From NCBI RefSeq assembly GCF_004022215.1, contig NZ_SAUZ01000006.1, positions 124,001 to 188,000 on the forward strand: DNA of 64,000 nucleotides, written 5' to 3'. The notes under the pieces are model-generated. The model had not been told where the DNA came from. It worked only from the letters and a program-made list of their open reading frames with translations, and searched no databases. The translations under genes were made by a program, and so were the position numbers. How positions within the stretch are numbered: the stretch's first letter is position 1; every line of letters begins with the position of its first letter. The DNA comes from Paenirhodobacter populi. Its GTDB lineage: Bacteria > Pseudomonadota > Alphaproteobacteria > Rhodobacterales > Rhodobacteraceae. This document shows, one piece after another, positions 19,304 to 55,764 of the stretch.

Positions 19304-19403
19304 CGGGAGAGGTTGGCGCGGGCGAGCGCCTCGCCAACCCGGTCAGGTCCGGAAGGAAGCAGCCGCAACGAGCCCCGCTTGGGTCGATGTCCAGCCTCTC
19401 ACC
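19304..19403 (+). ncRNA. ffs: Signal recognition particle RNA (4.5S type)
   Basis: It contains the universal SRP apical-loop sequence GGTCAGGTCCGGAAGGAAGC (19341-19360) followed by AGCC. The 5' arm GAGAGGTTGG pairs with the 3' arm CCAGCCTCTC to close the long hairpin. The RNA binds Ffh and targets nascent membrane proteins to FtsY. About 100 bases, the size of the short bacterial form. Ends are inferred from pairing and could shift by a few bases. Confidence 0.95.
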
Positions 19404-19450
19404 CCTCCCCCATACATTGGCATGCCCTGCCCGACCGGCGTCACGGCATG

Positions 19451-34430: not shown

Positions 34431-34435
34431 TGATG

Positions 34436-34533
34436 TCACCTCGGGGTGCCGGGGGTGCCCAGCGCGCCCGGCTGAGATGCGGATACCGCGAACCCGTTGA
34501 ACCTGAACCGGTTAGCACCGGCGGAGGGAAGGT
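34436..34533 (+). promoter_or_regulatory. TPP riboswitch (THI element)
   Basis: Conserved aptamer parts in order: CTCGGGGTGCC, GGCTGAGATGC (pyrimidine-sensing arm), the ACCCGTTGAACCTGAACCGG core and GGTTAGCACCGGCGGAGGGAA. Binding thiamine diphosphate should repress thiBPQ. No strong terminator lies between the aptamer and the thiB start codon at 34591, so control is probably by sequestering the ribosome binding site GGAGG at 34582-34586. Confidence 0.96.
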
Positions 34534-34590
34534 ATCCGGGTTCCCCGGCTTCGCTCCGCCCGTCGGCCAGAGTTGGAATGCGGAGGAACA

Positions 34591-38053: not shown

Positions 38054-38129
<76 letters not shown>

Positions 38130-52917: not shown

Positions 52918-53231
52918 CAGACGTCCTCCCCTGAACGGTTGAGGCTCCGAATCGGAGCGATCCGCGCTCCTTGGCGGGTCTTGCGGGGGAGGTCAAGATT
53001 TTTGGGATTTGGGTCAAACATTCTGACCAGTTTCCTTCCGGGGGTCAAGATGCGCCGCGCGCCCTTCGACCCGATTTGCGCGGCGCGCGCGGTGGGGGGA
53101 GGCCCGGCCGCGATCGCCGCAAACCCGCCGTTGGACGGGTTGATTCCACGATATGTCCCTCCCATAGCCAAACGGCGCAACTTTTGAAACCGTTTCAGGC
53201 CGATCACGACATATTATTTTTGTTTTCGGCA

Positions 53232-53260
53232 TTGACGGCCCGATCCGGCGCTCCTAATGT
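53232..53260 (+). promoter_or_regulatory. Promoter of the ilv leader
   Basis: TTGACG (53232-53237), a 17-base spacer and TAATGT (53255-53260), ~30 bases before the leader peptide start. The rest of the gap 52918-53231 shows no gene. Confidence 0.8.
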
Positions 53261-53289
53261 CCGGCCCAACGCAAGGAAAGGGATACGCG

Positions 53290-53337
53290 ATGCTGTCGCT
53301 TATTATCGTCGTAGGTGAAAGGCGCATGGGCCGGTAA
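53290..53337 (+). CDS. ilv operon leader peptide
   Basis: A 15-codon frame MLSLIIVVGERRMGR with Leu, Leu, Ile, Ile, Val, Val among the first eight residues: the codons of exactly the three amino acids made by the downstream pathway. AAGGAAAGGG precedes the ATG. Stalling at these codons when charged tRNAs are scarce would free 53321-53330 to form the antiterminator. Confidence 0.93.
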   Translation: MLSLIIVVGERRMGR

Positions 53338-53366
53338 CGGTTTGACCATGATGGTTCCCATGCGCC
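53321..53366 (+). promoter_or_regulatory. ilv attenuator: antiterminator hairpin
   Basis: GGCGCATGGG (53321-53330) pairs perfectly with CCCATGCGCC (53357-53366). The right arm overlaps the left arm of the terminator (53364-53371), so the two structures exclude each other. A ribosome reaching the leader stop (53335-53337) covers the left arm and permits termination; one stalled at the Ile/Val codons leaves it free. Confidence 0.85.
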
Positions 53367-53391
53367 CCCGCCCGAAAAGCGGGGGCTTTTT
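53364..53391 (+). terminator. ilv attenuator terminator
   Basis: Perfect 8-bp stem GCCCCCGC/GCGGGGGC (53364-53371 and 53379-53386), 7-base loop, then TTTTT. It stops transcription before ilvB when branched-chain amino acids are plentiful. Confidence 0.93.
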
Positions 53392-53449
53392 GTTGCGATC
53401 ACGAGGATGGCCGAAACCCGAAGGACGGCCGAGGGGAATGGAGAAACCG

Positions 53450-55195
53450 ATGTCACAGCAGATGACCGGCGCAAGGATGGTGTTGCAGGCGCTCCGCGAT
53501 CAGGGGGTCGATACGATCTTCGGCTATCCGGGCGGGGCGGTGCTGCCGATCTATGACGAGATCTTCCAGCAAAACGACATCCGCCACGTCCTCGTCCGCC
53601 ACGAACAGGCGGCCGTCCATATGGCCGAGGGCTACGCGCGCTCGACCGGCAAGCCGGGGGTGGTGCTGGTGACCTCTGGCCCCGGCGCGACCAATGCGGT
53701 GACCGGGCTGACCGATGCGCTGATGGATTCCATCCCGCTGGTGGTGTTCTCGGGTCAGGTGCCGACCTTCATGATCGGCACAGATGCCTTTCAGGAGGCG
53801 GATACCGTGGGCATCACCCGCCCCTGCACCAAGCACAACTGGCTGGTGAAGGAACCCGACCGGCTGGCGGAAACCATCCATCAGGCGTTTCATGTGGCGA
53901 CCTCGGGCCGCCCCGGCCCGGTGCTGATCGACCTGCCGAAGGATGTGCAATTCGCGACCGGCACCTATCACGGGCCGAAGACCGCGAAGGTCAGCCATTA
54001 CCAGCCCCGCGTGAAGGGCGATATCGAGGCCATCACGAAGCTGGTCGAGCTGATCGAGACGGCCGAGCGCCCGGTGTTCTACACCGGCGGCGGCGTGATC
54101 AACTCCGGCCCGGCGGCGGCGCAGCTGCTGACGGAACTGGTGGATGCGACGGGCTTTCCGATCACCTCGACGCTGATGGGGCTGGGCGCCTATCCGGCCT
54201 CGGGCAAGAACTGGCTGGGCATGCTGGGGATGCACGGGCTGTATGAGGCCAATCTGGCGATGCACGACTGCGACCTGATGATCAACCTCGGCGCGCGGTT
54301 CGACGACCGGATCACCGGGCGCGTGTCGGACTTCTCGCCGAAATCGACCAAGGTGCATGTCGACATCGACGCCTCCTCGATCAACAAGATCATCCGTGTC
54401 GATCTGCCGATCATCGGCGATGTGGGCCATGTGCTGGAAGACGCGCTGAAGATCTGGAAATCGCGCGGGCGCAGGACCAATCAGGCGGCGGTGGCGAAAT
54501 GGTGGTCCCGGATCAACGGCTGGAAGAAGGTGAACTGCCTCGCCTATTCCGGCTCGGACAAGACCATCAAGCCGCAATATGCGCTGGAACGGCTGGAGGC
54601 GCTGACCCGCGGCCGCGACCGCTACATCACCACCGAGGTCGGCCAGCACCAGATGTGGGCCGCGCAATACCTGCATTTCGACAAGCCGAACCGCTGGATG
54701 ACCTCGGGCGGGCTGGGCACGATGGGCTATGGCTTCCCGGCCTCGATCGGGGTGCAGATCGCCCATCCCGATGCGCTGGTGATCAATGTCGCAGGCGAGG
54801 CCTCGTGGCTGATGAACATGCAGGAAATGGGCACCGCGACGCAGTTCAAGGCCCCGGTGAAGCAGTTCATCCTGAACAACGAGCGCCTTGGCATGGTGCG
54901 GCAATGGCAGCAACTGCTGCATGGCGAGCGGTATTCGCAAAGCTGGTCGCAATCGCTGCCCGATTTCGTCAAGCTGGCCGAGGCCTTCGGCTGGAAGGGG
55001 ATCATCTGTTCGGACCCGAAGAGCCTCGACGACGCGATCATGGAGATGATCGAGCACGACGGCCCGGTGCTGTTCGACTGCCTCGTGGAAAAGCACGAGA
55101 ACTGCTTCCCGATGATTCCCTCGGGCAAGCCGCATAACGAAATGCTGCTCTCGGCCGATGCCGAGGCGTTCAAATCCGGCGCCGCGCTGGTCTAG
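53450..55195 (+). CDS. ilvB: Acetolactate synthase, large (catalytic) subunit
   Basis: A 581-residue TPP enzyme, first common step to Val/Leu/Ile. N-terminal TPP-binding Glu in VRHEQAAVHMAEGYARSTG; central FAD-type domain; C-terminal TPP/Mg block NVAGEASWLMNMQEMGTATQ, where the usual GDGS reads GEAS, a form I recall from related bacteria. GGAGAAACCG before ATG 53450; ATG 53438 is the alternative. It is in the attenuator-controlled operon. Symbol could be ilvI. Confidence 0.94.
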   Translation: MSQQMTGARMVLQALRDQGVDTIFGYPGGAVLPIYDEIFQQNDIRHVLVRHEQAAVHMAEGYARSTGKPGVVLVTSGPGATNAVTGLTDALMDSIPLVVFSGQVPTFMIGTDAFQEADTVGITRPCTKHNWLVKEPDRLAETIHQAFHVATSGRPGPVLIDLPKDVQFATGTYHGPKTAKVSHYQPRVKGDIEAITKLVELIETAERPVFYTGGGVINSGPAAAQLLTELVDATGFPITSTLMGLGAYPASGKNWLGMLGMHGLYEANLAMHDCDLMINLGARFDDRITGRVSDFSPKSTKVHVDIDASSINKIIRVDLPIIGDVGHVLEDALKIWKSRGRRTNQAAVAKWWSRINGWKKVNCLAYSGSDKTIKPQYALERLEALTRGRDRYITTEVGQHQMWAAQYLHFDKPNRWMTSGGLGTMGYGFPASIGVQIAHPDALVINVAGEASWLMNMQEMGTATQFKAPVKQFILNNERLGMVRQWQQLLHGERYSQSWSQSLPDFVKLAEAFGWKGIICSDPKSLDDAIMEMIEHDGPVLFDCLVEKHENCFPMIPSGKPHNEMLLSADAEAFKSGAALV

Positions 55196-55203
55196 GGGGA
55201 ACC

Positions 55204-55764
55204 ATGTCCGCACTGAACATCAAGAAGGGCTCGACCTCGCATTCGGCCTATGACCTCAAGGACTACCACCCGGAATTGGAGCGGTCCCATACCCTCGCCG
55301 TGCTGGTGGACAACGAGGCGGGCGTGCTTGCCCGCGTGATCGGGCTGTTCTCGGGCCGGGGCTACAACATCGACAGCCTCACCGTGGCCGAGATCGACCA
55401 TAAGGGCCACCGGAGCCGCATCACCGTGGTGACGCGCGGCACGCAGGCGGTGGTCGACCAGATCAAGGCGCAGCTTGGCCGCATCGTGCCGGTGCATCAG
55501 GTGATCGACCTGACCGTCGAAAGCACCGCGGTCGAGCGGGAACTGGCGCTGTTCAAGGTCAACGGCACCGGCGACAAGCGGGTCGAGGCCCTGCGTCTGG
55601 CCGATATCTTCCGCGCCAATGTGGTCGATTCGACGCTGGAGAGTTTCGTCTTCGAGATCACCGGCACGCCGGAGAAGATCGACGCCTTCGCCGAACTGAT
55701 GCGGCCGCTCGGTCTCAGCGACGTGGCGCGCACGGGTGTCGCCGCGCTGCCCCGCGGCGCGTGA
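55204..55764 (+). CDS. ilvH: Acetolactate synthase, small (regulatory) subunit
   Basis: A 186-residue subunit: N-terminal ACT domain (HTLAVLVDNEAGVLARVIGLFSGRGYNIDSLTVAE), then the small-subunit C-terminal domain (LRPLGLSDVARTG-type end). It gives valine feedback control to the large subunit. It starts 8 bases after ilvB, same transcript. Confidence 0.95.
   Translation: MSALNIKKGSTSHSAYDLKDYHPELERSHTLAVLVDNEAGVLARVIGLFSGRGYNIDSLTVAEIDHKGHRSRITVVTRGTQAVVDQIKAQLGRIVPVHQVIDLTVESTAVERELALFKVNGTGDKRVEALRLADIFRANVVDSTLESFVFEITGTPEKIDAFAELMRPLGLSDVARTGVAALPRGA

Follow-up and report, generated by a model that had tools for sequence, protein, structure and literature searches.

Organization of the leader region upstream of ilvI

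The window (the whole 64,000-nucleotide stretch of DNA that was analyzed) contains ilvI and, 8 nt 3' of it, ilvN/ilvH, which encode the large and small subunits of acetolactate synthase. Synthesis of valine, leucine and isoleucine begins with this enzyme. Immediately upstream of ilvI lies a short leader ORF followed by two overlapping hairpins and a run of five T residues. The features are:

53232..53260, + strand: probable promoter, TTGACG (53232-53237), 17 nt, TAATGT (53255-53260) (sequence, conservation)
53273..53282, + strand: probable ribosome binding site AAGGAAAGGG (sequence)
53290..53337, + strand: leader ORF of 15 codons, MLSLIIVVGERRMGR, ATG at 53290, TAA stop at 53335-53337 (sequence, conservation, codon bias)
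53299-53313, + strand: putative regulatory leader codons Leu Ile Ile Val Val (sequence)
53321..53330, + strand: antiterminator 5' arm (segment 2) GGCGCATGGG, within the leader codons for R-M-G
53331..53340, + strand: small CCG-GUAA-CGG hairpin whose loop holds the stop codon (folding, homologues)
53357..53366, + strand: antiterminator 3' arm (segment 3) CCCATGCGCC, 10 bp with 53321-53330
53364..53391, + strand: intrinsic terminator, 8-bp stem GCCCCCGC (53364-53371) / GCGGGGGC (53379-53386), T5 at 53387-53391
53450..55195, + strand: ilvI, acetolactate synthase large subunit, ATG at 53450 (NF006581, 1121.7 bits, cut-off 974)
55204..55764, + strand: ilvN/ilvH, acetolactate synthase small subunit (NF008864, 219.1 bits, cut-off 119)

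The preliminary description of this region had placed a promoter, ribosome binding site, leader codons, both hairpins and T5 here, and direct reading confirmed these parts and their coordinates. Codons for I/L/V in the window leader are CTG, CTT, ATT, ATC, GTC and GTA, and the predicted target gene is biosynthetic for the amino acids that these codons specify. In RNA folding, which had been suggested as a check, the segment 53320-53368 reached -26 kcal/mol (z -3.58), and 0 of 200 shuffles were as stable. When 53200-53449 was resampled 20,000 times with a first-order Markov model, no resample combined a short I/L/V-rich ORF with an 8-bp hairpin and T5 after it (the ORF alone occurred in 96 and the terminator alone in 2), and the combination was found nowhere else in the 64 kb on either strand in 50-nt steps; the criteria of both tests were fixed after the feature was seen. 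The ilvI frame is also open upstream, across the terminator, to a GTG at 53315, and a longer N-terminal reading (53315-55195) is possible. Elsewhere in the window are a TPP riboswitch at 34432-34546 (73 bits), a Small SRP RNA at 19306-19404 (+) and a tRNA at 38057-38129 (-).

The leader is conserved in relatives

We scanned public genomes with IlvI and retained the best 80 loci, giving 81 with the window; nearly all of the 80 are titled Rhodobacteraceae or genera of that family. The preliminary description had named a lack of conservation of the leader codons among relatives as one outcome that would refute its reading. By sequence pattern, the leader core is present in 71 of the 81 ilvI loci, the leaders are rich in Ile, Leu and Val, and the hairpins, terminator and promoter are kept as well. 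At least five I/L/V residues occur in 65 of the 71 leaders and all three residues in 62, while the C-terminus reads RMGR in 63, CMGR in 5 and RVGR in 2, with one truncated. A short leader ORF with clustered, putatively regulatory codons is conserved in relatives. Since the choice of leader start favored products of 13-17 aa, leader length was partly selected, and the 15-codon length was not used as evidence.

TTGAC occurs no more than 75 nt upstream in 69/71 leaders (versus ~5% of shuffles), and 37 of these 69 also have TAATGT at 17-nt spacing; however, the promoter at 53232-53260 is off-consensus and absent from the output of a sigma-70 consensus scan. A loose motif resembling a ribosome binding site precedes 65/71 leaders, a count taken without a chance control.

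Ten loci were missed by the pattern. A covariance model of the element (R1) still matches two of them, L017 (88.5 bits) and L067 (45.3 bits, in a locus cut by a contig end), and gives only weak matches to L012 and L054, whose divergent leaders (MSVVLISSGDRTGSA and, read by eye, MRFVLISSGGLNGSV) have a different stem and a similar terminator. In the DNA fetched around ilvI, 6 of the 80 relatives, all Paracoccus (L028, L051, L061, L070, L072 and L080), have no R1 match at E <= 1. Paracoccus sp. IB05 (L009) carries the attenuator, suggesting an apparent loss within the genus.

Within the window's family, R1 matched 91 of 100 genomes at E <= 0.1 (84 of these below 1e-4, while the weakest of the 91 may be chance) and had no match at this threshold in the other 9. 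Of 89 model-matched family loci, 85 have ilvI behind the element and 4 have an efflux transporter gene. This count mostly leaves aside matches weaker than E ~0.001 and omits L118 and L119 (both ilvI) and L187 (neither gene); with these three added, there are 87 ilvI, 4 transporter and 1 neither (n = 92). An I/L/V leader filter came back empty for six family loci: L248 has a good leader and no T5, and L178, L182, L183, L281 and L290 are poor in clustered I/L/V (L281, L183 and L178 being among the few leaders poor in I/L/V).

The window's own genome has one real copy of the attenuator by R1 search. Four further weak matches in that genome (L113-L116, E 0.017 or worse) were not counted, and L113 and L114 look like bare terminators. 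A scan with the pattern CCGGTRACGG...CATGCGCC returned 26 of 289 genomes, its reversed control pattern was found in four, and these hits were likewise excluded from all counts.

Leader codons are biased toward rare synonyms

Enrichment of rare codons is a prediction of ribosome-stalling control. CTA makes up 30/113 Leu codons in the leaders (27%) versus 28/3325 (0.8%) in ilvI of the same loci, an enrichment of ~31-fold. Similarly, GTA accounts for 109/177 leader Val codons (62%) versus 94/3133 (3.0%) in ilvI, or ~20-fold; because the 71 leader sequences are related, these codon counts are not independent events. The common codons CTG and GTG are depleted in leaders relative to ilvI. GTT is depleted too (3/177 Val codons versus 307/3133 in ilvI), and the rare-codon bias is therefore not simply A/T richness. 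In the theory of Elf and Ehrenberg, rare regulatory codons make a sensitive attenuator, with the effect of starvation amplified by 1/codon usage (PMC1183508).

Both hairpins are maintained as RNA structure

In the alignment of the 71 sequences, 99.4% of cells are paired across the structure. For the antiterminator stem the figure is 99.8%, but this stem is nearly invariant and so gives only G-U type changes. Compensatory changes in this alignment fall in the terminator. We also examined 73 model matches, a wider set that was fitted to the structure and is therefore biased towards it; both sides changed in 7 of 17 pairs (21 cells versus a shuffled mean of 2.4). Compensatory changes hence back a predicted terminator ahead of the structural gene. 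In 58/71 homologues there is an exact CCG-GTRA-CGG hairpin, and the stop codon occupies its loop. Furthermore, in L046 and L275 a TAG stop lies just before the RMGR codons, and the RNA stretch CGCATGGGCCGGTARCGG is retained. These two natural tests, in which RMGR drops out of the peptide and the arm is retained, argue that this stretch is conserved as RNA and not as peptide.

The antiterminator overlaps only the base of the terminator

Sequence parts, conservation, codon bias and compensatory changes were observed directly, and we infer from them that the acetolactate synthase genes are very probably controlled by a ribosome-mediated transcription attenuator. Transcription would start near 53267, and a ribosome would begin the leader at 53290. 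When Leu, Ile and Val are ample, the ribosome would reach the stop codon at 53335 and cover 53321-53330, leaving 53357-53366 free; the full terminator (53364-53386) would then form, and polymerase would halt in the T run to give an RNA of ~125 nt. A shortage of charged Leu, Ile or Val tRNA would instead stall the ribosome at 53299-53313, and 53321-53330 would pair with 53357-53366; the terminator would then lack its three basal G-C pairs, and polymerase would read through the base-clipped terminator into ilvI and ilvN. That the ribosome stalls, that polymerase terminates or reads through, and that the ilv leader responds to amino acids are predictions from these features. The layout (i.e., a leader ORF with regulatory codons, an antiterminator and a terminator) resembles that of E. 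coli ilvL, leuL and thrL.

The preliminary description had called this geometry classic. An alternative hairpin does overlap the terminator, but the overlap in the window is only 3 bases (GCC, 53364-53366). Across homologues, the outermost shared antiterminator pair is present in 39/71 and absent in 32, which share 2 bases. Because the overlap is so short, the two hairpins coexist in the minimum-energy fold. The classic geometry is therefore only partly right, since the antiterminator captures no more of the terminator than its base. Pairing loss in an intrinsic terminator should matter most at the base beside the T run. The shared bases are exactly this base, and we thus read the putative mechanism as antitermination by clipping it.

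We compared folding states under two kinds of calculation. At equilibrium with segment 2 free, the three basal pairs of the window terminator still form with P 0.71-0.84, and the outermost basal pair has P >=0.5 in 63/71 homologues. In the same calculation, the terminators of the known attenuators thrL, ilvL and leuL of E. coli also persist (mid-helix P 1.0). Equilibrium folding is therefore not discriminating and does not count as evidence against attenuation, and it was dropped as an exclusion test.

The other calculation folded a transcript ending before the terminator 3' arm with a ribosome placed at a chosen codon, assuming a footprint of 13 nt from the A site. With the ribosome at codons 6-7, 3 of the 8 terminator 5'-arm bases (the basal GCC) are paired, compared with 5.6-5.9 at codons 4-5 and 2.1 at codon 8. 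For the E. coli leaders, at most stall positions, 8/8 (thrL), ~7/9 (ilvL) and ~6/7 (leuL) terminator 5'-arm bases are pre-paired. Once the ribosome has reached the stop codon, fewer than 0.5 bases of the E. coli arms are paired, whereas the window arm keeps 3.5 of 8 paired via other local structures; this weaker contrast counts against a simple classic reading. Under the assumed 13-nt footprint, antitermination would not follow from a stall at the last Val codon.

Related leaders precede efflux transporter genes

No Rfam family matches the window element at gathering score. The best match is RF02502 Atu_C8 (25.1 bits, E 0.0072; gathering score 50). By sequence, the window element is related in parts to Atu_C8 and is not a member by the Rfam cut-off. 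Atu_C8, titled 'Rhizobiales sRNA', likewise has a short leader ORF, Val followed by RMG-type codons, a GCGCATGGG/CCCATGCGC hairpin and a terminator (example leader from a locus above cut-off, MQVSVVVGRRMGKAA). It differs in having a longer internal stem and a short hairpin-terminator linker by eye, and, in the six loci above cut-off, in having a transporter gene behind it rather than ilvI. These loci come from 6 of 36 genomes of the order of G107, with a transporter behind 6/6; in the class as a whole, the cut-off was exceeded in only 1/190 genomes. A seventh match in G107's order, L201, is below cut-off and precedes neither ilvI nor a transporter. Among other below-cut-off matches in the class, only L083/L184 was followed, and it precedes ilvI.

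The same association was found with R1. Matches below E 1e-8 occur in 9 of 289 genomes of the class. Four are in the window's family and all precede ilvI (L112, L117, L118 and L119). The remaining five (L120-L124) come from five other alphaproteobacterial families, one genome each; none precedes ilvI, and a major facilitator gene lies behind all of them. Most of the fetched class-wide matches at E 1e-5 to 0.05 are CCCCCG/CGGGGG terminators by eye, and only L126 and L140 were pursued because of the transporter ORF behind them. These weaker matches also precede a major facilitator gene; L126 (also L204) is divergent and fails the simple core pattern. All three proteins scanned, from L120, L122 and L140, pass TIGR00710 (Bcr/CflA family efflux). 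In the genomes of these seven loci, ilvI lies elsewhere, and the core pattern is absent from the 400 bases before it (0/7); a loose filter of this region gave short ORFs with some I/L/V and no T5 in L190 and L195.

The transporter version also occurs inside the window's family at lower scores (L175, L180, L181 and L182; 29.8 to 55.6 bits). Several transporter leaders are Val-rich (MNPKSVVVVVSRRCMVR, MTVTTVVVGAWRLDR and MITVVVVVMRERRVDR). In a search with the transporter, 13/142 genomes matched at E <= 1e-60, and the window's genome was not among them. Of 15 transporter loci, the leader precedes the gene only in L202, L205 and, weakly, L204; none was found before the close homologues L203 (66% identical), L206 and L207. 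Because such loci exist, the leader is far from universal before a Bcr/CflA-type pump.

The control of acetolactate synthase proposed in the preliminary description is supported, but the RNA is not ilv-specific: a related leader is also found before Bcr/CflA-type efflux transporter genes. In our judgment it is an even bet that one homologous family that includes Atu_C8, with a base-clip overlap, controls two unlike genes: acetolactate synthase in the family of the window and, in six or more other families, a Bcr/CflA-type pump.

Alternative explanations

The element could function mainly as a small trans-acting RNA or encode a trans-acting leader peptide, with cis control of ilvI secondary. 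This is improbable, though it has precedent: a passage of PMC7298713 reports that the Sinorhizobium trp leader peptide acts in trans, and the title of another work indicates that the trp attenuator RNA does so as well. A trans-acting RNA would also fit hairpin arms that are nearly invariant, beyond the needs of pairing, and the listing of the related Atu_C8 in Rfam as an sRNA. However, ilvI is behind the element in 85/89 loci counted, this model gives the rare I/L/V codons no role, and two leader peptides lack RMGR though their RNA is kept. Even less probable is a constitutive terminator following a short translated ORF, with no amino acid regulation. Such a terminator leaves the conserved I/L/V codons, the choice of rare codons and the conserved alternative pairing unexplained, even though equilibrium folds favor it at most ribosome positions and, in the pre-terminator fold, a stalled (codons 6-7) and a finished ribosome differ little. 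To a ligand-binding riboswitch or T-box, we give almost no weight; a conserved structured 5' region ahead of a biosynthetic gene would suit either, but no Rfam family reaches gathering score and the I/L/V leader ORF is conserved. We favor the ribosome-mediated attenuator.

Discussion

Vitreschak et al. (2004) reportedly predicted branched-chain attenuators for ilvIH in alphaproteobacteria. These likewise place a leader peptide and attenuation before an acetolactate synthase operon, and the 2-3 nt overlap and RMGR core found here may or may not figure in that work. For an alphaproteobacterial ilvB leader peptide that had been described before, Corbino et al. 2005 (PMC1273637) refer to Vitreschak et al. 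2004. With such a leader peptide in print, the window element belongs to a known kind, and an ilv attenuator as such is to be expected in these genomes. For the link between the leader and transporters, no pointer was found in open-access titles and abstract starts, which is weak evidence of novelty with most subscription journals outside that set, and a word search of two Agrobacterium RNA papers found no passage on it.

The 71 natural variants provide a clean set for asking how small an antiterminator overlap can be. If the family is as proposed, the tiny overlap would represent 'base-clip' antitermination, spoiling only the terminator base beside the T run. Moreover, a related leader before efflux pumps would give the Atu_C8 'sRNA' a testable role as an attenuator that senses translation of branched-chain codons. 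An exporter would then be switched on when Val/Ile/Leu codons are translated slowly, through starvation or through drugs that target the ribosome, and its substrate may be a branched-chain compound or an antibiotic.
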